Source: Flavobacterium frigoris PS1
GTDB taxonomy: Bacteria; Bacteroidota; Bacteroidia; Flavobacteriales; Flavobacteriaceae
Assembly (NCBI RefSeq): GCF_000252125.1
Contig: NZ_AHKF01000018.1
Coordinates: forward strand, 186,001-250,000
Direction of reading: 5' to 3'
Length of the DNA: 64,000 nt
Below are positions 6,626 to 18,029 of the stretch, piece by piece. Below the pieces are notes generated by a model, which was given only the letters and a program-made list of their open reading frames with translations, was not told the DNA's origin and did no database searches. A program made the position numbers and the translations under genes. The number at the start of each line of letters is the position of its first letter. Within the stretch, counting starts at the first letter, position 1.

Positions 6626-7306
6626 CTATTCAGCGATCCTTTTTAATTTATTGATGTCTTTAAGAGTGATTTTCTTGCCGACCAATTCAATTATTCCTAA
6701 TTTTTTAAAATCAGACAACAAGCGAATGCAGCTTTCAGTGGCAGTCCCAATCATGCTGGCTAATTCATCCCTTGACAACTGAATCTTTAATGAATTATCC
6801 CCGTTTACACCAAAAGTATCATGCAAATGAAGCAGTGTTTCTGCTAATCTTTCTTTGACCGATTTTTGGGCCATATCAACCATATGACCATCAGCTTCTT
6901 TTAAGTCTCCGCAAATGGTTTTCATTACATTCATAGAAAACTGGTTGTTCTTGTCAAAGAAACCCATTACCTCGGTTTTAGGAATAAAGCATACTTCCAT
7001 GTCTTCAAGAGCAACGGCACTTAAGTTTACAGGTTCTTCACTTATTAGCGAACGTTGACCTAATAACTCTCCTTTTGTAACAAGTTTTATTATTTGATCT
7101 TTACCGTTTGGACTTAATTTTGTGAGTTTGCATACTCCTTTTTTAATGCAGAATATTCCATTTACATTTTCGCCTTCTCCAAAAATCACTTCCCCTTTTT
7201 TAATGGTGTGTGATGTTTTGCAATCAGCAAGTTTTAGTAACTCATCTTTGCTGAGTGCTTTTAGAGAACTAAATTCTCTAACTATACATTGTTCGCATTT
7301 ACTCAT
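6626..7306 (-). CDS. Crp/Fnr-family transcription regulator, FNR-like, with 3 of 4 cluster cysteines
   Basis: A 226-residue regulator with an N-terminal cyclic-nucleotide-binding-like beta-roll (about 15-120), a dimerisation helix (about 125-150) and a C-terminal winged helix (about 150-225). Set beside E. coli FNR from memory, Cys4, Cys7 and Cys106 fall at FNR Cys20, Cys23 and Cys122 with a constant offset of 16; FNR Cys29 corresponds to Ser13. The recognition helix reads E191SCIR195 where FNR has ETISR and CRP has ETVGR, so the residue before the conserved Arg is Ile. The gene is divergent from ccoI, and a TATGA-N6-TCATA palindrome lies between them. It very likely activates the cbb3 genes when oxygen is low; an iron-sulphur cluster is possible but unproven because one ligand is missing. 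Confidence 0.9.
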   Translation of the reverse strand: MSKCEQCIVREFSSLKALSKDELLKLADCKTSHTIKKGEVIFGEGENVNGIFCIKKGVCKLTKLSPNGKDQIIKLVTKGELLGQRSLISEEPVNLSAVALEDMEVCFIPKTEVMGFFDKNNQFSMNVMKTICGDLKEADGHMVDMAQKSVKERLAETLLHLHDTFGVNGDNSLKIQLSRDELASMIGTATESCIRLLSDFKKLGIIELVGKKITLKDINKLKRIAE

Positions 7307-7346
7307 CTTGAAAAAGGTTTGTTAGTTCGGTAAAATTACGGTTTTA

Positions 7347-7391
7347 TATGACATATATCATATTTTAATTAACATTCGTTGAGCATCTTTG
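7347..7391 (+). promoter_or_regulatory. Crp/Fnr-type box and ccoI promoter
   Basis: The palindrome TATGA-CATATA-TCATA (7347-7362) is followed by a -7-like CATCTTTG (7384-7391). The distance from box centre (7354.5) to the last base of the -7 element is 36.5 nt, the same as before ccoS and hemN. No TTG -33 element is present, as expected for an activator-dependent promoter with the box near -41.5. In the other direction, a weak TAATTTTA (7338-7331) could serve the regulator gene, with the box overlapping it at about -28, suggesting autoregulation. Confidence 0.75.
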
Positions 7392-7414
7392 TATTAGGTA
7401 AAATGAGCAAAGTT

Positions 7415-9793
7415 ATGGATACACAAAATTGTTTCCATTGTGGTTTAGATATAATTAAAGTAGAAGAAATTGTTTTTGACGAAAAAAAATTTTGTTGCAA
7501 CGGTTGTAAGACCGTGTACGAAATTTTTAGTCTGAATGATTTGGGCTGCTATTATGATTTTGAAAAATCCCCTGGAGCGACTCCGCTAGACATAAGCGGT
7601 AAATATGATTTTTTAGACAATGAAAGTATTATTTCAAAATTATTGGAGTTTCAAGAGGATAGAACCGCTATTGTTTCACTTAGTATTCCTCATATTCATT
7701 GTAGTTCGTGTATTTGGATTCTGGAAAATTTACAACGTCTTCAAAAAGGAATAAGCGCTTCTCAGGTAAATTTCCCAGATAAAACAGTTAGGATTACATA
7801 CAATCCAGAATTAGTTTCGATCAAAACGATAGTTTATCTGTTAAGTTCTATTGGATATGAACCCTATATTAGTCTGGACAATTATGAAACGGGGACGAAG
7901 AATATTGATCGAAGCTTAACTTACAAATTAGGCGTTGCTTTCTTTTGTTTTGGAAATATTATGTTGCTTTCCTTTCCTGAATATTTTGAAGTTAATGAGT
8001 ATTGGCTAGACACTTACAAGCCTTTCTTTAGGTGGTTGATTTTTGTGATCTCGTTGCCTGCCTTCTTTTATTCGGCCAATGGCTATTATATTTCCGCATA
8101 CAAGAGTATCAAGTCAGGAATGTTGAATATTGATATCCCAATCGCATTGGGGATTATTGTAATGTTTGTTAGGAGTACCATAGATATAGCTTTTAATTAT
8201 GGGTCTGGCTTCTTTGATAGTTTAACGGGTTTGATTTTCTTTATGTTATTGGGTAAGATGTTTCAAATCAAGACTTATAGTTTTTTAAGTTTCGAAAGGG
8301 ATTTTAAGTCCTATTTTCCTATAGCCATTACCCGAGTTAATAGTGATACTACAGAAGAGAGTGTTCCGGTTTATGATATTCAAAAAGGGGATCGGTTGCT
8401 TATCAGGAATCAAGAGTTGATACCCGTTGATGGTATTTTAATTAGTGGAAGTGCGTCAATTGACTACAGTTTTGTGACAGGAGAAGCAATTCCGATCACC
8501 AAAAAATCGGGAGATAAAATATTTGCCGGAGGAAAACAAATAGGTAAAGTTATCGATATGGAGGTGCTGCATTCAGTGTCACAAAGTTACTTAACTCAGT
8601 TATGGAGTAATGATGTTTTTCAGAAAGATGTGGAACAAAAACACAAAAATATCACTGATATGATCAGCCGTTATTTTACTCCAATTCTTTTGTTGATTGC
8701 TTTTAGCTCATTTATGTATTGGATTTTTATTGATACAATCACTGCTTTTAATGTTTTTACATCCATATTGATTGTAGCCTGTCCTTGCGCCTTGGCGTTG
8801 ACCGCTCCTTTCACTATGGGTAATGTATTACGGATTTTGGGAAAACAGAAATTTTACCTAAAGAATGCTTTAGTCATTGAACAATTAGCAAAAGTAGATA
8901 CGATAGTTTTTGACAAAACAGGAACTATCACGACCAACAAGAAATCAAGTATTTCTTATGAAGGTATTTCGTTTTCTGAAGAGAACTTAATTCAGGTCAA
9001 AAATTTGCTTCGAGCTTCTAATCATCCATTGAGCAGAATGCTGTATGATTTCTTACCAGAAGGAAAGAGAATGAAAACAAATGATTTTGAAGAAATCACT
9101 GGTAAAGGAATTCAAGGTATGATTGATGGAAAGCATATTAAAATAGGTTCTGCTCTTTTTGTCGAAAAATCAGAAGAAAACGACATCATGCAAACATCGG
9201 TTCATATTATGATTGATGGGGTTTATTTCGGGAAATATGTTTTCAATAATCAATACAGAGAGGGCTTAGACAGTCTTTTTAAGATTTTGAAACAAAATTA
9301 CCAGATCAAAGTATTATCTGGTGATAACGATGGCGAAAAAACGACTTTAAGGAATATTTTGCCACAGGGAACTGAATTGGTATTTAATCAAAAGCCAGAA
9401 CAGAAACTCGAATTCATCAAGAAACTACAAGAAGAGGGTAAAAATGTTATGATGGTTGGCGATGGTTTAAATGATGCGGGTGCATTGGCGCAAAGCAACA
9501 TCGGTATATCAATTTCAGAAAACGTCAATGTTTTCTCACCTGCTTGTGATGCCATTCTTGAAGCGAACGAATTTCAAAAATTGCACTATTTTTTAAAGCT
9601 TTCGAAAAAAGCAATGAAAACTATCAAGATGAGTTTTGCAATATCATTGTTTTATAACGTAGTAGGATTGTCATTTGCAATCACGGGAAATTTAATGCCT
9701 TTGGTTGCCGCTATAATTATGCCGTTAAGCACCATTACGATTGTGAGTTTTGTAACGATAATGAGTAATTATTATGCAAAAAGGCTAAGGTAA
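7415..9793 (+). CDS. ccoI: Copper-transporting P-type ATPase CcoI/FixI
   Basis: A 792-residue P1B-type ATPase that moves copper across the inner membrane for cbb3 oxidase assembly. The N-terminus carries a Cys-rich metal-binding region (NCFHCG at 5-10, FCCNGC at about 27-31) and an HMA-like domain with HCSSC. Further motifs are the intramembrane CPC at 456-458, the phosphorylation site D500KTGT, the HP motif at His537 and the hinge G682DGLND. The frame is open from TTG 7379, but the predicted transcript starts near 7396. ATG 7415 gives MDTQNCFHCG and ATG 7403 is the alternative. It heads the cbb3 cluster, divergent from the Crp/Fnr regulator. Confidence 0.95.
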   Translation: MDTQNCFHCGLDIIKVEEIVFDEKKFCCNGCKTVYEIFSLNDLGCYYDFEKSPGATPLDISGKYDFLDNESIISKLLEFQEDRTAIVSLSIPHIHCSSCIWILENLQRLQKGISASQVNFPDKTVRITYNPELVSIKTIVYLLSSIGYEPYISLDNYETGTKNIDRSLTYKLGVAFFCFGNIMLLSFPEYFEVNEYWLDTYKPFFRWLIFVISLPAFFYSANGYYISAYKSIKSGMLNIDIPIALGIIVMFVRSTIDIAFNYGSGFFDSLTGLIFFMLLGKMFQIKTYSFLSFERDFKSYFPIAITRVNSDTTEESVPVYDIQKGDRLLIRNQELIPVDGILISGSASIDYSFVTGEAIPITKKSGDKIFAGGKQIGKVIDMEVLHSVSQSYLTQLWSNDVFQKDVEQKHKNITDMISRYFTPILLLIAFSSFMYWIFIDTITAFNVFTSILIVACPCALALTAPFTMGNVLRILGKQKFYLKNALVIEQLAKVDTIVFDKTGTITTNKKSSISYEGISFSEENLIQVKNLLRASNHPLSRMLYDFLPEGKRMKTNDFEEITGKGIQGMIDGKHIKIGSALFVEKSEENDIMQTSVHIMIDGVYFGKYVFNNQYREGLDSLFKILKQNYQIKVLSGDNDGEKTTLRNILPQGTELVFNQKPEQKLEFIKKLQEEGKNVMMVGDGLNDAGALAQSNIGISISENVNVFSPACDAILEANEFQKLHYFLKLSKKAMKTIKMSFAISLFYNVVGLSFAITGNLMPLVAAIIMPLSTITIVSFVTIMSNYYAKRLR

Positions 9794-9825
9794 CTTTATA
9801 ATAAATTTAACAAAAAATAAAGAAG

Positions 9826-9870
9826 TATGATAAATGTCATATTTTTAGGAGGACAAGCAAGTTAACTTTG
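9826..9870 (+). promoter_or_regulatory. Crp/Fnr-type box and promoter of the ccoS-ccoNO operon
   Basis: TATGA-TAAATG-TCATA (9826-9841) is followed by a perfect -7 element TAACTTTG (9863-9870). The centre-to-end distance is 36.5 nt, identical to the ccoI and hemN promoters, and no -33 TTG is present. The predicted start is near 9875, 14 nt before the ccoS ATG. This gives the structural oxidase genes a promoter separate from ccoI. Confidence 0.78.
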
Positions 9871-9888
9871 TATACACAAATTATAGGT

Positions 9889-10074
9889 ATGAGTGTCATT
9901 TATTTATTAATCTCCATCAGTATTTTCGTAGCTGTTGCTTTTTTTATTGCTTTTATAGTAGCGGTAAGAAGTGGTCAATATGACGATGACTATACTCCAT
10001 CCGTCAGGATGCTTTTTGATGACGAGATCAAGCCCCAAAAAGAAATACAAACAACAGAAGAAAAACAAAATTAA
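9889..10074 (+). CDS. ccoS: cbb3 oxidase assembly protein CcoS
   Basis: A 61-residue protein with one transmembrane helix (VIYLLISISIFVAVAFFIAFIV, cut here for description) followed by a short acidic tail that includes SGQYDDDYTPS, the usual CcoS signature. CcoS is needed for cofactor (haem b and copper) insertion into cbb3 oxidase. A longer frame from TTG 9868 would overlap the -7 element, so ATG 9889 is preferred. It ends 2 nt before ccoNO, so the two are translationally close and share the upstream box-controlled promoter. Confidence 0.9.
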   Translation: MSVIYLLISISIFVAVAFFIAFIVAVRSGQYDDDYTPSVRMLFDDEIKPQKEIQTTEEKQN

Positions 10075-10076
10075 TT

Positions 10077-12260
10077 ATGGAAATGCAGCAGTTTTACTAT
10101 GACAACAAAATTGTTAAAAAGTTCATTTACGCGACCATTGTTTTTGGAGTGGTCGGAATGGCAGTCGGACTTTTATTGGCGACATTATTTTTATTCCCAA
10201 ATCTTACGGACGGAATTTCGTGGTTAAGTTTTGGTCGATTAAGACCTTTACATACTAATGCAGTTATTTTTGCCTTTGTAGGAAATGCAATGTTTGCGGG
10301 AGTCTATTATTCTTTGCAGCGATTGTTGAAAGCGCGAATGTTTAATGATTTTTTGAGTAACCTGAATTTTTGGGGTTGGCAATTAATTATTGTGGCCGCG
10401 GCCATTTCCTTACCGTTAGGATATACTTCTTCAAAAGAATATGCTGAGTTGGAATGGCCTATAGATATTGCCATTGCATTGATTTGGGTTGTTTTTGGTA
10501 TCAACATGATTGGTACAATATTAAAAAGAAGAGAGCGTCATTTATATGTTGCGATTTGGTTTTATTTGGCCACTTTTGTAACGGTAGCCGTTTTACATAT
10601 TTTTAATAGTTTGGCATTGCCTGTGTCTGCAATGAAAAGTTACTCCGTTTATGCAGGTGTACAAGATGCTCTAGTGCAATGGTGGTACGGGCATAATGCG
10701 GTAGCTTTTTTCTTGACGACTCCGTTTTTAGGATTGATGTATTATTTTGTACCAAAAGCGGCAAACCGTCCGGTATACTCTTACCGTTTGTCAATCGTTC
10801 ACTTTTGGTCATTGATATTTTTATATATATGGGCAGGTCCCCATCACTTATTATATTCTGCATTGCCTAACTGGGCTCAGAATTTAGGTGTTGCGTTTTC
10901 AATCATGTTATTGGCTCCGTCTTGGGGAGGTATGATTAATGGATTGTTGACTTTACGTGGTGCTTGGGATAAAGTGCGTGTTGATCCTGTTTTGAAATTT
11001 TTCGTTGTAGCAATTACCGGATATGGTATGGCTACGTTTGAAGGACCTATGTTGTCTCTTAAAAACGTAAATGCAATTGCGCATTTCACGGATTGGATTA
11101 TTGCACATGTTCACGTTGGGGCTTTGGCTTGGAATGGTTTTATGGCTTTCGGTATGATTTACTGGTTGGTTCCAAGAATGTCAAAAGGACCTTTGTTTTC
11201 ATCTAAATTGGCCAACTTTCACTTTTGGATTGGGACACTAGGTATCATACTTTATACATTACCGATGTACGTAGCCGGTTTTTTACAAGCCTCAATGTGG
11301 AAACAATTTAATCCTGATGGAACTTTAACTTACGGAAATTTCCTTGAAACTGTGACGCAAATTATGCCAATGTATTGGATGCGTGCTGCAGGAGGAACCT
11401 TATATATTATCGGAATGTTTGTTTTAGTATATAACATCACTAAAACAATCAGAGCAAATGCATCAATTGAAGATGAATTAGCCGAAGCACCTGAATTACA
11501 AAAAATCAGCAGTGGTAGAACTAAAGGAGAGAAGTTTCACCCTTGGTTAGAGAGAAAACCAATTCAGTTGACAATTCTTGCAACAGTAGCAATCTTAATT
11601 GGTGGAATTATTCAAATCGTTCCGACGATAATGGTAAAATCTAATATTCCAACTATCGCCAGTGTAAAACCATACTCACCTTTGGAATTAGAAGGTCGTG
11701 ATTTATACATCCGTGAAGGTTGTGTGGGTTGTCACTCACAAATGGTACGTCCTTTTAGAAGTGAAGTAGAACGTTACGGGCCACAATCAAAAGCGGGAGA
11801 ATTTGTTTATGATCATCCATTCCTTTGGGGTTCTAAACGTACAGGACCAGATTTATTAAGAGTAGGAGGTAAGTACAATGATAACTGGCACTTCAACCAT
11901 ATGTGGAGTCCTCAAAGTACCTCTTCAGGTTCTATAATGCCAGGATACAAATGGTTGTTTGACAATAGCGCTTTAGATATTTCAGATATTGAAGCGAAAA
12001 TGAAAGTGATGCAAACGCTAGGAGTTCCTTACACTGATGCTGAAGTTGCAAATGCTAAAAATGCAATTAAGGAGCAATCTCAAAAAATTGAAGATAATCT
12101 TCATGCTGATCCTGACTTTGTTAAAAGTTATGAGAACAGTAAGAAAAAGGCAGTGGCTAAAGGAGAAAAATTTGTGCCAATGCATGAGAGAGAAATTGTA
12201 GCATTAATAGCTTACATACAAAGGTTAGGAACTGATATTAAAGTAAAAGATAATAAGTAG
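10077..12260 (+). CDS. ccoNO: cbb3-type cytochrome c oxidase fused subunits I and II (CcoNO)
   Basis: A 727-residue fusion of the catalytic haem-copper subunit CcoN and the monohaem cytochrome c subunit CcoO of the high-affinity terminal oxidase. The first ~470 residues have about 12 membrane helices with HTNAVIFAFVGNAMFAG, WWYGHNAVAFFLTTP and HVHVGALAWNGF carrying haem and CuB histidines. After a linker and one more helix, the CcoO part has C549VGCH553 with SQMVRPF and the distal PGYKWLF Met-ligand region. The fusion is usual in Bacteroidota, whereas proteobacteria have separate genes. It is flanked by ccoS and ccoQ. Confidence 0.95.
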   Translation: MEMQQFYYDNKIVKKFIYATIVFGVVGMAVGLLLATLFLFPNLTDGISWLSFGRLRPLHTNAVIFAFVGNAMFAGVYYSLQRLLKARMFNDFLSNLNFWGWQLIIVAAAISLPLGYTSSKEYAELEWPIDIAIALIWVVFGINMIGTILKRRERHLYVAIWFYLATFVTVAVLHIFNSLALPVSAMKSYSVYAGVQDALVQWWYGHNAVAFFLTTPFLGLMYYFVPKAANRPVYSYRLSIVHFWSLIFLYIWAGPHHLLYSALPNWAQNLGVAFSIMLLAPSWGGMINGLLTLRGAWDKVRVDPVLKFFVVAITGYGMATFEGPMLSLKNVNAIAHFTDWIIAHVHVGALAWNGFMAFGMIYWLVPRMSKGPLFSSKLANFHFWIGTLGIILYTLPMYVAGFLQASMWKQFNPDGTLTYGNFLETVTQIMPMYWMRAAGGTLYIIGMFVLVYNITKTIRANASIEDELAEAPELQKISSGRTKGEKFHPWLERKPIQLTILATVAILIGGIIQIVPTIMVKSNIPTIASVKPYSPLELEGRDLYIREGCVGCHSQMVRPFRSEVERYGPQSKAGEFVYDHPFLWGSKRTGPDLLRVGGKYNDNWHFNHMWSPQSTSSGSIMPGYKWLFDNSALDISDIEAKMKVMQTLGVPYTDAEVANAKNAIKEQSQKIEDNLHADPDFVKSYENSKKKAVAKGEKFVPMHEREIVALIAYIQRLGTDIKVKDNK

Positions 12261-12271
12261 TAAAGTAACAG

Positions 12272-12337
12272 AGTCACAAAGCCTCAAAGTAGCGGAAGCA
12301 TAAAATAAAAACTTTGCTACTTTGAAACTTTGCCACT
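12272..12337. repeat. Imperfect inverted repeat between ccoNO and ccoQ
   Basis: Two 22-nt arms (12272-12293 and 12316-12337) pair with four mismatches around a 22-nt loop; the shared core is TCAAAGTAGC/GCTACTTTGA and the arms are rich in CAAAG. It begins 12 nt after the ccoNO stop and ends 17 nt before ccoQ. No T tract follows, so it is not a typical terminator. It could be an mRNA-stabilising or processing hairpin, or a REP-like dispersed element. Confidence 0.6.
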
Positions 12338-12354
12338 TTTAAACTCAATTTAAA

Positions 12355-12531
12355 ATGTTTGAACAAATAAAACACAACATGGAAACGATCGCGGGAGTTG
12401 CGATTTATCCGATACTATCGTTATTGATTTTCTTTTTCTTCTTTGTGGGCCTTGGAATATGGGTTGCGTTCTATAAAAAAGAGAAGATCAATGAATTGAG
12501 TCAAATTCCATTTAACGATAATAATATATAA
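12355..12531 (+). CDS. ccoQ: cbb3 oxidase subunit CcoQ/FixQ-like small protein
   Basis: A short gene of 58 codons, ATG 12355 to TAA 12529-12531. The protein starts MFEQIKHNMETIAGV and has one strongly hydrophobic helix (about residues 15-40, ending GLGIWVAFYKKEK). A charged tail follows, ending NDNNI. A single-helix protein between ccoNO and ccoP is the expected form and place of CcoQ, which stabilises the CcoP interaction in other bacteria. A second Met at residue 9 could also start the protein. Its gap to ccoP is 16 nt, so the operon continues. Confidence 0.85.
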   Translation: MFEQIKHNMETIAGVAIYPILSLLIFFFFFVGLGIWVAFYKKEKINELSQIPFNDNNI

Positions 12532-12547
12532 TTTCAAAATATTTAAA

Positions 12548-13459
12548 ATGAAAAAATTAATTCCAGCCTACGTTAGAGTACCGGCAATTTTCTTCCTCAT
12601 TTTTGGAGCAATGGAATATTTTATAGATTCAGGTGATCGAGCCGCATTTATAAAATACCCTATGGTCTCATTGTTTCTGTTGTTTTTTCTATTTCTTTTA
12701 ATCGCAATAGAAATTACAATTAAAGCAATTGATAACATCACATATCAAATGCTGACTGAGGAGCAAAAAATAAAATTAGAAGAACAAAGTAACTTGAGTT
12801 TTAGGGAGAGCGACTGGTATCAAACGCTGATGCAAAAACTGACCAAAACTGAGCCTATTGAAAACGAAGGAAATCTTCTGCTAAATCACGACTATGATGG
12901 TATCAAGGAATTAGACAATAATCTGCCGCCATGGTGGGTATATTTATTCTACGGTTGTATTGTTTTTGCGCTAGTATATATGGTTCGATTTGAAATTATG
13001 GGAGGTGACGACCAAGAAATGGAATTGAAGAAAGAATTAGCACAAGCTAAAATTGATGTTGCTGAATACATGAAAACAGCTCCAGATTTAATGGATGAAA
13101 AAACGGTGACCTTACTTACGGAACCGGCTGATTTAGCTATCGGTAAAACAATTTTCATGGAAAATTGTGCAGCCTGCCATAGAGCGGATGCTGGAGGACA
13201 AATTGGGCCTAACTTGACGGATGATAAATGGATTTTGGGTGGCGGAATTAAAAATGTATTCCATACTTTAGTTAATGGAGGTCGTGATGGAAAAGGAATG
13301 ATCTCTTGGAAAGGTACACTTAAACCAAAAGAAATGCAGAAAGTGGCAAGTTATGTATTGTCTCTGAAAGGAAGCAATCCAAAAGATCCAAAAGCACCTG
13401 ACGGTGAAGTATGGGTTGAAGAAGCTGCATCGAGTACTGAAGTTTCGGTTGCTAACTAA
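12548..13459 (+). CDS. ccoP: cbb3 oxidase cytochrome c subunit III (CcoP), monohaem
   Basis: A 303-residue membrane-anchored cytochrome. It has two N-terminal hydrophobic helices (about 8-60), a soluble helical stretch, then the FixP_N segment with HDYDGIKELDNNLPPWW and a third helix (about 135-150). A single class I cytochrome c domain follows, with C207AACH211 and the distal Met in KGMISWKG. Only one CXXCH is present, where proteobacterial CcoP usually has two haems. The extra N-terminal helices and the single haem seem to be the Bacteroidota form. It feeds electrons to CcoO in the periplasm. The Ala/Glu-rich tail is low in complexity. Confidence 0.93.
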   Translation: MKKLIPAYVRVPAIFFLIFGAMEYFIDSGDRAAFIKYPMVSLFLLFFLFLLIAIEITIKAIDNITYQMLTEEQKIKLEEQSNLSFRESDWYQTLMQKLTKTEPIENEGNLLLNHDYDGIKELDNNLPPWWVYLFYGCIVFALVYMVRFEIMGGDDQEMELKKELAQAKIDVAEYMKTAPDLMDEKTVTLLTEPADLAIGKTIFMENCAACHRADAGGQIGPNLTDDKWILGGGIKNVFHTLVNGGRDGKGMISWKGTLKPKEMQKVASYVLSLKGSNPKDPKAPDGEVWVEEAASSTEVSVAN

Positions 13460-13488
13460 AGATACATTGAAAGTATAAAAATAAAAAC

Positions 13489-14907
13489 ATGTCAAAATTA
13501 CCAGACGAAGCATTTAGAGATACCATTGGTACTATCGACGAAGAGGGAAATAGAAAATTTATATTTCCTAAAAAACCTTCAGGTAAATTCTACGACTATA
13601 GAAAATGGGTGAGTTACTTTTTGTTGATCATTTTGATTGCCAATCCTTTTATAAAGATTAATGGAAATCAGTTCATGTTATTCAATATCATGGAACGTCG
13701 ATTTAATATTTTTGGATTTCCTTTTTGGCCGCAGGACTTCTATCTATTTGTACTATTTATGATAGTAGGAGTGGTATTTGTCATCTTGTTTACTGTGATT
13801 TTTGGAAGAATATTTTGTGGATGGATTTGTCCGCAAACTATTTTCTTAGAGATGGTTTTTCGTAGAATTGAGTATTGGATAGAAGGAGATCGAGGTGCGC
13901 AAATCAGATTGTCTAAACAAGAATGGAATGCAGAGAAAATAAGAAAAAAGGGAATTAAGTGGTTTATTTTTCTAATCATCTCTTTTGGTATTGCAAATGT
14001 ATTTCTTGCCTATCTTATTGGTAGTGATAAACTATTGCAAATGATTGAAGAGGGACCTATTAATAATATTAGTACGTTGATTGCGTTGTCTATTTTTACA
14101 GGGGTTTTCTATTTTATATTTGTTTGGTTTAGAGAGCAAGTTTGCATTATAGCCTGTCCTTACGGAAGGTTGCAAGGAGTTCTCTTGGACAATAAATCAA
14201 TAAATGTTGCTTATGACTTTGTACGTGGCGAAAAAGAAACGGGTAGAGCTAAGTTTAATAAGCAGGAAGATAGAGATGCCAGCGGAAAAGGGGATTGTAT
14301 CGATTGCAAACAATGCGTCAATGTATGTCCAACAGGAATTGACATTCGTAATGGGACTCAATTGGAATGTGTGAATTGCACTGCTTGTATTGATGAGTGT
14401 GATGTGATAATGGAGAATATAGGTTTGCCCAAAGGATTAATCCGCTATGCATCCGAAGATGAAATAGAGCAGAAGCTTCCTTTCAAGTTCACCGCAAGAA
14501 TGAAAGGCTATACTTCGATATTGGTTATTTTAGTCGGTATTTTATTGGGTTTACTGTTTTTGAGAACAGAGGTAGAGGCTACTATTTTAAGATTGCCTGG
14601 ACAGCTTTTTCAGCACAAAGGGGATAAAATAAGTAATGTTTTTACCTATAAAATTATAAATAAGACCAACAATGATTTTAATGATATTCATTTCAAATTG
14701 GAAGGTATAAAAGGAAGTTTAAATGTAGTTGGAAAACAACATTTTATAGTTAAAAAACAAGGAATGAATGAAGGGACCTTGTTTGTTGAAATCAATCAAT
14801 ATTTATTAGAGAGTGATAAAACAAAATTAAAAATTGAAGTGTACGACGGTGATAAAAAAATTGAAACCAGTACGACTAATTTTTTAAGTCCACGAAGTTT
14901 CGATTAG
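13489..14907 (+). CDS. ccoG: cbb3 oxidase accessory protein CcoG (polyferredoxin)
   Basis: A 472-residue inner-membrane iron-sulphur protein of the CcoG/RdxA/FixG family, involved in Cu(II) reduction or cofactor delivery for cbb3 assembly. About four N-terminal membrane helices include the FCGWICPQ motif, with a later IIACPYGR motif. Two 4Fe-4S motifs follow, CIDCKQCVNVCP (from Cys270) and CVNCTACIDECD. There is a fifth helix near residue 345 and a C-terminal Ig-like domain ending SPRSFD. Spacing from ccoP is 29 nt and ccoH follows after 46 nt. The length is typical. Confidence 0.94.
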   Translation: MSKLPDEAFRDTIGTIDEEGNRKFIFPKKPSGKFYDYRKWVSYFLLIILIANPFIKINGNQFMLFNIMERRFNIFGFPFWPQDFYLFVLFMIVGVVFVILFTVIFGRIFCGWICPQTIFLEMVFRRIEYWIEGDRGAQIRLSKQEWNAEKIRKKGIKWFIFLIISFGIANVFLAYLIGSDKLLQMIEEGPINNISTLIALSIFTGVFYFIFVWFREQVCIIACPYGRLQGVLLDNKSINVAYDFVRGEKETGRAKFNKQEDRDASGKGDCIDCKQCVNVCPTGIDIRNGTQLECVNCTACIDECDVIMENIGLPKGLIRYASEDEIEQKLPFKFTARMKGYTSILVILVGILLGLLFLRTEVEATILRLPGQLFQHKGDKISNVFTYKIINKTNNDFNDIHFKLEGIKGSLNVVGKQHFIVKKQGMNEGTLFVEINQYLLESDKTKLKIEVYDGDKKIETSTTNFLSPRSFD

Positions 14908-14953
14908 TATAATAATTAATTGAAGGTGCGCCTTCAAAATTAAAAATATAGAT

Positions 14954-15403
14954 ATGAAAATTAATTGGGGAGGCGGAATCGTCATAGCAATTGTATTGTT
15001 TATGAGTTTCATTTTATATTTTGTTATCAAAGTACAAGTAAATCCAAAATATGATAACGATTTGGTCGTCGAGGAATATTACAAGCATGACGCTGTTTTT
15101 GGACAGGAAATGAAAAGAGTCCAGAATGCAGAGGATTTAGATCAAAAACCACTTATAGTAAAGACTGCTGCCGGAATCACAGTTGTTTTTCCATCCGCAT
15201 TTAAGCCACATAAAATAAAAGGAACAGTGTCCCTTTATAGACCGTCTAACAAAAAATTAGACTTCGAAATTCCTATTTCGTTGTCTAATCCATCTTTGCT
15301 CATACCTAAATCAAATTTGGTAGGCGGTCGCTGGGACATTAACATGGAGTGGCAGTATGACGGAAAACAGTATTTGACCAAGGATACTTTCTATATAAAT
15401 TAG
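14954..15403 (+). CDS. ccoH: cbb3 oxidase assembly protein CcoH/FixH
   Basis: A 149-residue protein with one N-terminal membrane helix (about 5-27, GGGIVIAIVLFMSFILYF) and a periplasmic beta domain, the FixH/CcoH layout. The motif DLVVEEYYKHD just after the helix and the C-terminal GRWDINMEWQYDGKQY are family features. CcoH assists late cbb3 assembly and may stay associated with the complex. It sits between ccoG and the TauE/SafE-like gene, all in one direction. Confidence 0.9.
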   Translation: MKINWGGGIVIAIVLFMSFILYFVIKVQVNPKYDNDLVVEEYYKHDAVFGQEMKRVQNAEDLDQKPLIVKTAAGITVVFPSAFKPHKIKGTVSLYRPSNKKLDFEIPISLSNPSLLIPKSNLVGGRWDINMEWQYDGKQYLTKDTFYIN

Positions 15404-15441
15404 AAACAACTATTCGAAAATTCTAGACCCAACAAGTCTTA

Positions 15442-16170
15442 ATGATTTTCGATTTTACGACTTATTTTATGCTTTACACAGCGTTTATTTTCGGTTTAAT
15501 TAGCAGTTTTCATTGCATAGGAATGTGTGGGCCTATTGCTATGATGTTACCTGTAGACAGAAATAACCCTACAAAAAAAGCGAGCCAGATTGTAACCTAT
15601 CATCTGGGGAGGTTAACAGCCTATGGTACAATAGGTCTCATTTTTGGGTTGGTTGGTAAAGGTTTTTTCATAGCTGGAATACAACAAAATCTGTCCATAT
15701 TTATTGGAGTTGCTATGATTGCGGTGATCTTGATTCCAGATAAGATATTTTCAAAATATAATTTTTCAAAACCAATATTTAAATTGATATCTAAAGTCAA
15801 ATCAACGCTGGGTAGTCAATTTAAAAACAGGAGCTATAAGTCACTGTTTACTATAGGTTTACTTAATGGTGTTTTGCCATGTGGGATGGTTTATGTAGCT
15901 TTGTTTGGAGCAATCGCCATGCAAAGTGAAAGTTTAGGTGTTTTGTATATGGTTTTGTTTGGATTAGGAACCGTTCCTATGATGAGCAGCGTAATTTACA
16001 TCAATTCTTTTTTGACAGTGCCGGTCCGTAATAGGATTCAAAAGGTCATACCATATGTTGCCGTTTTAATTGGAATACTATTTATATTGCGAGGATTGGG
16101 CCTGGGAATTCCTTATGTTTCCCCATCTAATATGAGTTTGTTTATACAGGAAACTCCAAATTGCCATTAA
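15442..16170 (+). CDS. TauE/SafE (UreH-like) family membrane protein of the cbb3 cluster
   Basis: A 242-residue polytopic membrane protein with about six helices. The signature SFHCIGMCGPIAMMLP lies in the first helix, and a related LPCGMVYVALFGA is seen near residue 148. This family is often encoded beside ccoG and ccoH and is thought to handle copper or another factor for oxidase maturation; the label sulphite exporter is inherited and not supported here. ATG 15442 is the first start, and ATG 15469 (MLYTAFIFG) is also plausible. It ends 36 nt before the DUF465 gene. Confidence 0.85.
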   Translation: MIFDFTTYFMLYTAFIFGLISSFHCIGMCGPIAMMLPVDRNNPTKKASQIVTYHLGRLTAYGTIGLIFGLVGKGFFIAGIQQNLSIFIGVAMIAVILIPDKIFSKYNFSKPIFKLISKVKSTLGSQFKNRSYKSLFTIGLLNGVLPCGMVYVALFGAIAMQSESLGVLYMVLFGLGTVPMMSSVIYINSFLTVPVRNRIQKVIPYVAVLIGILFILRGLGLGIPYVSPSNMSLFIQETPNCH

Positions 16171-16206
16171 TTAATTGTCATTATTTTTAATATAAATTCA
16201 ATCCAC

Positions 16207-16443
16207 ATGGAAAGACACGATTTAATACACGAGTTTCCTCAATTTGAGGAAAAAATTCATAAATTAAAAGTTGAAGATCCCCATTTCAGAAGGCTCTTTG
16301 ATGAATATCACGAACTAGAACACGAAATTCATCGCGTAAATACTGACATTGAAGTAGTCACTGATGAGCATGCCCATGAGTTAAAAGCTAAATTACTGTT
16401 TATCAAAGATGAACTGTATGGCATTTTAACAAAGGACGAATAG
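16207..16443 (+). CDS. DUF465 (YdcH-like) small helical protein
   Basis: A 78-residue highly charged, all-helical protein, starting MERHDLIHEFPQFEEKIHKL. It contains the DxHFRRLFDEYHELEHEIHR pattern of the DUF465/YdcH family and probably forms a helical hairpin or coiled coil in the cytoplasm. Function is unknown. It is the last gene of the cbb3 run and is followed by a strong hairpin, so co-transcription is likely, though a direct role in respiration is not implied. Confidence 0.85.
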   Translation: MERHDLIHEFPQFEEKIHKLKVEDPHFRRLFDEYHELEHEIHRVNTDIEVVTDEHAHELKAKLLFIKDELYGILTKDE

Positions 16444-16484
16444 ATTCTAATTGGACCGCTATTTTTTTATGATTTCAAAATAAT

Positions 16485-16558
16485 ACCGCAAATTCACAAA
16501 TTAGGGACACAACAGTACTAGTATCTTTAATTTTCGAATTTGCGGTTTACTTTTTTTG
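16485..16558. terminator. Terminator between the cbb3 run and hemN
   Basis: A long imperfect stem (16485-16503 with 16528-16546, outer arms ACCGCAAATTC / GAATTTGCGGT, two mismatches) with a 24-nt loop, followed by TTACTTTTTTTG. It lies between two convergent genes and can end the plus-strand transcript; the minus-strand side has a weaker T run. Confidence 0.75.
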
Positions 16559-16597
16559 TATCTAAACAGAATAACTGTTTGCTCAGAAAATATTCAA

Positions 16598-17962
16598 CTA
16601 TATTGTCATAGAAAATAGTTCTGTTTCTGGCGCTTTACGCTTTAAATGTAAGTCAAATGCCATACAAATGTTACGAATATGTGGTTTGCCACTTTCAGTG
16701 ACCTGGATGGAATTATCGCGAATCAACAGTAGGCCATCTTTTTCCATTTCTTGTAACTGAATCAGTACTTCTGGAATTTCTTCAAAGTAATCCTGCTTAT
16801 TTTCCCATGAAGTTTCAAATTGACACATTATATTAAGGATATGTTTTCTAATGATGAGGTCTTCATCGTTCAGCAAATGACCTCTAAAAATGGGCAACTT
16901 GTCCCATTCTAGGATTTGGTAATAATCTTCTAAATTTTTTTCATTTTGTGCAAAGCTGTACCAGCTGTCGCTAATCGAGGATACCCCTAAACCAATCATT
17001 AATTGAGTTTTTGACGAGCTGTAGCCCATGAAATTGCGATGCAATTTACCATTTTTAAAAGCTTCAAAGAGACTATCAGTTTTTAATGCAAAATGATCCA
17101 TCCCTACTTCATAGTAGCCGTTGTCTAGTAATAACTCTTTGCCTATTTGGTACAACATTCTTTTTTCTTGGTCTTGTGGAATGTCTTCGTCCTTAAAGCC
17201 ACGTTGACCATTTCCCTTTATCCAAGGAACATGTGCGTAACTGTAGAATGCTAATCGATCGGGCTGCAGCGATTTTGTTTTTTCTATGGTGTCAATAACA
17301 TCTTCTATTTCCTGGAAAGGAAGTCCAAAAATAATATCATGACCAATGGAGGTATAGCCAATTTCTCTTGCCCAGAACGTTACTTTTGCAACATTATGAA
17401 ACGGTTGCTCTCTATGGATGGCCTTTTGTACTTTATCGGAATAATCCTGAACGCCAAAACTGACTCTCCTAAAACCCAGATCGTACAGTTTTTTTAAATG
17501 TTCGTGAGTAGTGTTGTTAGGATGACCTTCAAAACTAAATTCATAATCTTTAGCTTTACTGGCATAAGAAAAAATACCATTGATTAAATCCTCTAGGTTT
17601 TTGGGAGAGAAAAAAGTGGGCGTTCCTCCGCCCAAATGAATTTCTTTTATCTGTGGCTTTTCACCTAATATTTTACAGTATAATATCCATTCTTTTAAAA
17701 CAGCTGCAATGTAGGGGTGCTCCACTGTATGGTTTTTTGTAATGCGCTTGTTGCATCCACAAAAAGTGCATAGACTTTCACAAAAAGGAAGGTGGATGTA
17801 GAGACTGATTCCTTCTTTTGAATTGGTTTCCACAAAGGTTTTCTTTAAGCTGTCTATCCAATTTTGATATAAAAAATCGGCTTCATTCCAATAAGGAACA
17901 GTCGGATAGCTTGTATATCTTGGTCCAGGGACATTGTATTTTTGAATCAACGAATTTTTCAT
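16598..17962 (-). CDS. hemN: Oxygen-independent coproporphyrinogen III oxidase
   Basis: A 454-residue radical-SAM enzyme that converts coproporphyrinogen III to protoporphyrinogen IX without oxygen, a haem biosynthesis step. The N-terminal KYNVPGPRYTSYPTVPYW and the cluster motif C61ESLCTFCGC70 are diagnostic of true HemN, and the EIHLGGGTPTF glycine motif follows. An upstream Met at 17980 would fall on the predicted transcription start, so Met 17962 is preferred. The promoter carries the same palindrome at the same spacing as ccoI and ccoS, which fits haem supply for cbb3 oxidase at low oxygen. Confidence 0.95.
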   Translation of the reverse strand: MKNSLIQKYNVPGPRYTSYPTVPYWNEADFLYQNWIDSLKKTFVETNSKEGISLYIHLPFCESLCTFCGCNKRITKNHTVEHPYIAAVLKEWILYCKILGEKPQIKEIHLGGGTPTFFSPKNLEDLINGIFSYASKAKDYEFSFEGHPNNTTHEHLKKLYDLGFRRVSFGVQDYSDKVQKAIHREQPFHNVAKVTFWAREIGYTSIGHDIIFGLPFQEIEDVIDTIEKTKSLQPDRLAFYSYAHVPWIKGNGQRGFKDEDIPQDQEKRMLYQIGKELLLDNGYYEVGMDHFALKTDSLFEAFKNGKLHRNFMGYSSSKTQLMIGLGVSSISDSWYSFAQNEKNLEDYYQILEWDKLPIFRGHLLNDEDLIIRKHILNIMCQFETSWENKQDYFEEIPEVLIQLQEMEKDGLLLIRDNSIQVTESGKPHIRNICMAFDLHLKRKAPETELFSMTI

Positions 17963-17984
17963 AAGATATAAATTTTTCAATATT

Positions 17985-18029
17985 CAAAATTAGCTGTAAT
18001 TATGAAAAGTTAAAATGATAATTATCATA
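17985..18029 (-). promoter_or_regulatory. Crp/Fnr-type box and hemN promoter
   Basis: On the minus strand TATGA-TAATTA-TCATT (18029-18014) is followed by -7 element TAATTTTG (17992-17985). The centre-to-end spacing is 36.5 nt, exactly as for ccoI and ccoS. No -33 TTG is present. The predicted start is near 17980, giving an 18-nt leader to ATG 17962. Confidence 0.77.

Follow-up and report, generated by a model that had tools for sequence, protein, structure and literature searches.

Three promoters in a 64,000-nucleotide stretch of the Flavobacterium frigoris PS1 genome (contig NZ_AHKF01000018.1, positions 186,001 to 250,000; hereafter the window) share a palindromic box at one fixed distance from their -7 elements. 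They precede the P-type ATPase gene ccoI, the cbb3 oxidase genes ccoS-ccoNO, and the haem synthesis gene hemN. We conclude that the box is most likely the operator of the FNR-like regulator encoded next to the ccoI box (6626-7306, minus strand), a predicted class II activator with a variant sensor and a variant half-site. The first-pass annotation of the window had drawn attention to the palindrome, but did not mention this Crp/Fnr gene in that connection.

At ccoI, ccoS and hemN alike, the centre of the box lies 36.5 nucleotides (nt) from the last base of the -7 element, and none of the three window promoters has a TTG at -35 to -33. Both observations confirm the first-pass annotation, as do the positions of the boxes and -7 elements (Table 1). 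Relative to transcription starts mapped in F. psychrophilum, the -7 element TAnnTTTG occupies positions -12 to -5 (PMC9723704). In this borrowed frame, the window boxes would be centred at -41.5. The class II geometry proposed earlier thus holds within the F. psychrophilum frame, where it agrees with the spacing peak and the promoter profile described below. A T-tract directly 3' of the box (about -33 to -30) is kept at ccoS and ccoI promoters, where a -33 element would sit.

Conservation of the box before orthologous genes had been named as one test of the proposal, which withstood it in Flavobacteriaceae. A CcoNO scan yielded at least 80 loci, and the window was included in the comparison. 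Genes were examined if the match started no more than 12 residues from the start and at least 180 nt of sequence were available in the stretch. The pattern TGA-N6-TCA followed by NAnnTTTn at a gap of 22-24 nt was scored, with the mirrored pattern as control. In loci with CcoNO at least 75% identical, it preceded 38/41 ccoI, 46/48 ccoS, and 19/23 hemN genes, with a gap of exactly 23 nt in 35, 46, and 19 of them, respectively. At 70-75% identity, it was found before 5/5 ccoI and 4/6 ccoS genes (there was no hemN to examine). The mirrored pattern was found 0 times before ccoI, ccoS and hemN in each identity group.

The same arrangement was recovered by a procedure blind to the box, in which promoters from loci with CcoNO at least 70% identical were aligned on the best-matching TAnnTTTG upstream of each gene. 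The filters for the -7 element and for length were passed by 53 of 54 ccoS, 44 of 46 ccoI, and 19 of 23 hemN stretches. For ccoS, the resulting profile recovered TGAtaaataTCA centred at -41.5, and the ccoI and hemN profiles were similar. The consensus had TGA at -47 to -45 and TCA at -38 to -36; both triplets occupied exactly these positions in 44/53 ccoS, 32/44 ccoI, and 17/19 hemN promoters. A TTG at -36 to -32 was not found in any of these promoters (0/53, 0/44 and 0/19), so that the absence of a -33 TTG also holds in the relatives. The first base of the ccoI -7 element was T in only 2 of 37 aligned sites (window included), which would fit an activator-dependent promoter.

Alignment of the 104 exact sites from loci with CcoNO at least 70% identical gave a consensus of roughly YMTGAY-AAAT-RTCA. 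The outer TA is only loosely kept (T 36% or C 38%, then A 65% or C 31%), so TATGA does not stand as the defining half-site. A G beside TGA, as in the CRP-type half-site TGTGA, occurs in 3% of the sites. Judged from these sites, the core of the box is TGAY-N4-RTCA, in the same register as the E. coli FNR box. The N6 spacing, earlier taken as a difference from FNR, is no real difference: when TATGAT-N4-ATCATA is aligned with nTTGAT-N4-ATCAAn, the register is the same and the TGA...TCA core is common to both, and the two differ at the next base out from it. No published description of the box was found among the matches listed in the literature searched, which lay largely outside subscription journals.

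The literal palindrome TATGA-N6-TCATA was rejected as the motif, since on its own it was not enriched in the F. frigoris genome (7 occurrences versus 13 for the reversed pattern). In the 64-kb window, it was found at 10 sites with at most one mismatch, versus 3.94 expected. The composite TGA-N6-TCA-N23-TAnnTTTG occurred 13 times in the genome, versus 2 for the reversed pattern, and 10 of the 13 sites also fit TGAY-N4-RTCA. The ccoI box is absent from the 13 because the ccoI -7 element begins with C.

Spacing was further analyzed in 41 Flavobacterium genomes with TGAT-N4-ATCA at gaps of 10-40 nt to TAnnTTTG; there were at least 150 pairs, and the 150 listed came from 13 genomes. Among these, 46 had a gap of 23 nt, whereas each of the 30 other gaps had 3.5 on average; gaps of 24 and 22 nt accounted for 14 and 10 pairs, and the remaining 28 gaps averaged 2.9. 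A binomial value for the peak ignores the kinship of the genomes. Of the listed gap-23 sites, 45/46 lay outside open reading frames of 90 codons, and in 41/46 a gene of at least 90 codons started within 250 nt downstream. Among 14 comparison sites at other gaps, taken non-randomly among 80 such pairs, from the five genomes at the head of the list, 11 were inside open reading frames and 3 outside. One comparison site (L187, gap 10), the fnr promoter of a relative, was kept in the count. That the shared palindrome arose by chance in AT-rich DNA, as the lack of enrichment of its literal form might suggest, is practically negligible in view of the fixed spacing before orthologues, the empty mirror control, the box-blind profile, the gap-23 peak, and the intergenic placement of the sites.

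The sites were not restricted to the window. In F. frigoris, genes just downstream include ccoS and hemN, genes for proteins matching members of the relatives' target clusters by BLASTP (UspA 63%, OmpW 62%, an MBL/rhodanese protein 64%, and YceI 56% identical), and a gene for an Old-Yellow-Enzyme-like protein, judged by look. One strict site (L090, C30:35483-35525) precedes a gene for a predicted membrane peptide of 42 residues. Recurrent targets at the 46 listed gap-23 sites were nirK (5), an outer-membrane barrel (5), ccoS-ccoNO (5), and hemN (4), followed by MBL/rhodanese (3), UspA (3), YceI (3), and RIC (2). One member of each target cluster was run against family models, and that of the outer-membrane barrel cluster had no match. 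A small cytochrome c resembling NorC was also among the targets in relatives. Sites thus also stand before conserved genes elsewhere, including further low-oxygen or nitrogen-oxide genes, and the regulon, previously called local, is predicted to be genome-wide, with nirK (copper nitrite reductase), RIC, OmpW, UspA, and YceI in relatives.

The regulator gene encodes a 226-residue protein that matched PF00027 and PF13545 above cut-off, with a beta roll of the cNMP-binding type and a Crp helix-turn-helix, placing it in the Crp/Fnr superfamily. Its AlphaFold model (pLDDT 90) matches the folds of the P. gingivalis protein 2gau and A. fischeri FNR (5e44). Cysteines C4, C7, C53, and C106 are invariant in 40/40 aligned sequences. 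C4, C7, and C106 align with C20, C23, and C122 of the E. coli FNR record; C29 of FNR aligns with a serine, and C53 with an alanine of FNR. In the model, C53 lies on strand 50-56 and C106 on strand 103-109, and the two corresponding strands are neighbours in the Crp beta roll. C53 is the candidate replacement for the missing fourth ligand. In the recognition helix, E191 and R195 align with FNR E209 and R213, and I194 takes the place of S212. In E. coli FNR, the residues equivalent to E191 and R195 read TGA, and S212 contacts the T outside it. The isoleucine goes with A or C in the box where the FNR box has the outer T. The NCBIfam Fnr model scored 89 of 228 bits, under its cut-off. By these comparisons, the protein is a member of the Crp/Fnr superfamily that departs from canonical FNR at C29 and S212, in the outer T of its box, and in falling under the NCBIfam cut-off.

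Autoregulation was suggested by the fnr promoters. TGA-N6-TCA was found within 200 nt upstream of fnr in 88/100 loci, and the distance from TAnnTTT to the palindrome centre was 22.5, 23.5, and 24.5 nt in 18, 9, and 5 cases, respectively. The palindrome would thus be centred between about -27.5 and -29.5 and cover the -33 region. Five loci (L023, L027, L028, L032, and L216) had the palindrome at 36.5 nt from the fnr -7 element; in the remaining loci the distance varied, and in a few the box was more than 120 nt away. Since Box 1 overlaps the window fnr promoter, the active regulator probably represses its own gene.

From the sequence comparisons, we infer oxygen sensing, cluster ligation, DNA binding, and the direction of regulation as follows. 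At low oxygen, the regulator would hold a [4Fe-4S] cluster on C4, C7, C53, and C106, dimerise, and bind the box. Acting as a class II activator, the bound protein would recruit RNA polymerase and so replace the missing -33 contact, and the same palindrome before ccoI would let it repress fnr.

The scheme resembles FNR control of cbb3 oxidase and hemN. E. coli FNR has a TTGAT-N4-ATCAA box, a -41.5 class II site, and autorepression. FNR (b1334) and the F. frigoris protein share the Crp/Fnr fold, the CxxC, the C122 equivalent, the recognition-helix E and R, the TGA...TCA register, the -41.5 site, and probably autorepression. The two differ in that identity is 25%, C29 is missing here while C53 is invariant, S212 is replaced by I194, the FNR box has a T where the half-site here has A or C, and the promoter here has a TAnnTTTG -7 element. 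In Proteobacteria, FixK, FnrN, FnrL, and Anr control cbb3 oxidase and hemN, a similar gene set with class II logic, but in another phylum and with other promoter elements and another half-site. CRP (TGTGA-N6-TCACA) has the fold, the TGA...TCA core, and the class II site in common with the system described here, but has G where the half-site here has A or C, and the invariant cysteines are a feature of the protein here. The best solved-structure match by sequence and fold was 2gau, the sequence alignment of which starts only at residue 25 and so excludes the CxxC.

The strict composite was counted in 118 genomes of the order, divided into four groups by best regulator match. Uncorrected for phylogeny, site density was 1.94 per megabase (Mb) where a Cys-type ortholog was present (39 genomes; 278 sites, mirror 6), 1.10 per Mb in 20 genomes with a best match 36-38% identical (group B; 88 sites, mirror 0), 1.02 per Mb in 7 genomes with weaker relatives only (18 sites, mirror 0), and 0.30 per Mb in 52 genomes in which no relative was found (20 sites, mirror 1). 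Group B comprises the 19 genomes of family f4, discussed below, and G069 (f7), which has four cysteines; the grouping was left as drawn.

Several points weigh against the adjoining gene product as reader of the box. Conservation drops outside Flavobacteriaceae: with CcoNO less than 70% identical, the arrangement preceded only 3/15 ccoI, 7/20 ccoS, and 2/7 hemN genes. In the regulator, position 29 of the canonical ligand set 20, 23, 29, and 122 is unmatched, and the E209/S212/R213 set is incomplete. Group B has 88 gap-23 sites; in the four genomes inspected, these resemble another motif and precede other genes, which means that class II spacing is not confined to this regulator. Finally, three genomes without a Cys-type protein (G097, G074, and G116) have 9, 6, and 3 gap-23 sites, which in G074 precede hemN and a UspA-like gene, and all three carry a histidine kinase and a REC-Crp fusion. 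These sites and the differing ones of f4 indicate that Crp/Fnr proteins of these bacteria probably use class II spacing in general. The fusions are about 345-350 residues long (L273, L274, and L275), and UspA-like genes adjoin in two of the three.

The REC-Crp fusion may read the same box: its recognition helix likewise has E..IR, and some G074 and G097 sites lie within a few kb of the pair. It nevertheless appears unlikely that the box is read mainly by another Crp-family protein, be it such a fusion or a cAMP-type CRP. CRP prefers G next to TGA, rather than A or C, and the Cys-type gene has its box in common with ccoI. An HTH_Crp_2 search of the F. frigoris genome pointed to five places, namely the regulator, L131, L132, L134 (a 190-residue Crp-like protein), and the ArsR-like L133. 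The other four all lack the cysteine set and differ in size from a REC-Crp fusion, and the helices of L131 and L132 differ (SREVISR and SRQTATQ). L131, L132, and L134 were rejected as the regulator for want of the cysteine set, and L133 is ArsR-type by look.

The presence of nirK, RIC, and the NorC-like cytochrome among the relatives' targets could also be read as a response to nitric oxide (NO) or another signal instead of oxygen, in the manner of DNR or NnrR. We consider this quite improbable, given the four invariant FNR-type cysteines and the well-kept targets ccoS, ccoI, and hemN. Fe-S FNR proteins can respond to NO too, so oxygen and NO sensing are compatible. Also against an NO sensor, cbb3 and haem synthesis genes of F. 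psychrophilum were reported to be up at low oxygen (PMC9723704). Flavobacteriales Crp/Fnr homologs have been assigned to carbon sensing (MalR) in a metatranscriptome study (PMC8510549).

We compared 59 regulators, the best matches of 58 genomes (first two groups, own genome excluded) plus one G097 paralog. All four cysteines were present in 39 and none in 19; the set was kept or lost whole in 58/59, the lone mixed regulator (CCIC) being the G097 paralog. The 19 cysteine-free regulators represent every f4 genome sampled, and all are divergent from ccoI and have the helix GTATESAIR. In a tree built with the cysteine columns kept in, all 19 group in a single clade (100/100) that is the sister of Flavobacteriaceae (86/92); with a REC-Crp outgroup on long branches, the clade falls inside the cysteine-bearing family, though this inner placing lacks strong support. 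Its position beside Flavobacteriaceae suggests that f4 is probably Weeksellaceae. A metagenome-assembled genome titled Chryseobacterium gleum (L080) has the full cysteine set, and the tree places its regulator with those of Flavobacterium; since its label looks wrong, it was left out of the f4 set.

The f4 boxes were placed differently. At fnr, the box follows the -7 element (TATTTTTG) by 0-1 nt in 19/19 genomes, and so covers the expected transcription start. Before ccoI, TGA-N6-TCA at a gap of 20-26 nt to the -7 element was found in none of 19. At ccoS, the box stands at gap 11 to TAAATTTG in 12/12 loci, with 24.5 nt from the centre to the last base (-29.5), and the gap-23 arrangement was not found in the stretches of these 12 loci. 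The gap-11 site occurs near the fnr-ccoI locus in 18/19 f4 genomes (7 by position and likeness only), and the nineteenth, G088, has TGAG in place of TGAY. A second -7 element lies further downstream in f4 ccoS promoters and may be activated from about -53. In the four f4 genomes inspected, many gap-23 sites (L282-L311) read TGAYnnnARTCATAAA; some precede short lipoprotein genes, and for many no open reading frame of 70 residues was found nearby. Some of these sites are near another Crp-like gene. Tentatively, and with somewhat more doubt than conviction, we suggest that in f4 an oxygen-sensing activator became a cysteine-free, probably oxygen-independent regulator with boxes at repressor-like positions, an activator-to-repressor inversion in one orthologue. 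If true, this would independently support C53 as the fourth cluster ligand elsewhere.

The genes of the locus are listed in Table 1. The regulator gene is divergent from ccoI, and Box 1 is common to both. The ccoI product scored 312 of 397 bits with the copper model TIGR01511 and 342 of 346 with the heavy-metal model TIGR01525. Its start is ATG 7403 or 7415; a TTG at 7379 sits upstream of the -7 element. A 58-residue open reading frame between ccoNO and ccoP (12355-12531) possibly encodes a CcoQ-like peptide. Shine-Dalgarno sites are seldom used by flavobacteria. AGGTA is found right before the start codon of 29/54 ccoS, 25/46 ccoI, and 2/23 hemN genes among relatives whose CcoNO identity is 70% or more, and in the window at 7396-7400 (ccoI) and 9885-9889 (ccoS).

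Table 1. Boxes, -7 elements and genes, in window coordinates; -41.5 and -28.5 refer to the F. psychrophilum frame.
Feature	Coordinates	Strand	Remarks
Box 1	7347..7362	+	TATGAC-ATAT-ATCATA; between fnr (-) and ccoI (+); -41.5 for ccoI, about -28.5 for fnr
Box 2	9826..9841	+	TATGAT-AAAT-GTCATA; -41.5 for ccoS-ccoNO
Box 3	18014..18029	-	TATGAT-AATT-ATCATT (TATGATAATTATCATT); -41.5 for hemN
ccoI -7 element	7384..7391	+	CATCTTTG; first base not T
ccoS -7 element	9863..9870	+	TAACTTTG
hemN -7 element	17985..17992	-	TAATTTTG
likely fnr -7 element	7331..7338	-	TAATTTTA; 23.5 nt to Box 1 centre
fnr-like gene	6626..7306	-	226-residue Crp/Fnr regulator; C4, C7, C53, C106; recognition helix GTATESCIR
ccoI, P-type ATPase	7403..9793	+	TIGR01494 over cut-off
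ccoS, cbb3 assembly protein	9889..10074	+	
ccoNO, fused cbb3 oxidase subunits I/II	10077..12260	+	
ccoP	12548..13459	+	under model cut-off, 105 of 180 bits
ccoG	13489..14907	+	
hemN, oxygen-independent coproporphyrinogen III oxidase	16598..17962	-	ATG at 17962

If our interpretation is true, Flavobacteriia, which include common environmental degraders and fish pathogens, would gain an oxygen regulon whose site and geometry are exactly defined, and the class II -41.5 rule would extend to the Bacteroidota -7/-33 promoter. The system would also offer a natural FNR experiment, in which the fourth ligand has moved and one lineage has lost the whole ligand set and has its sites at repressor-like positions.

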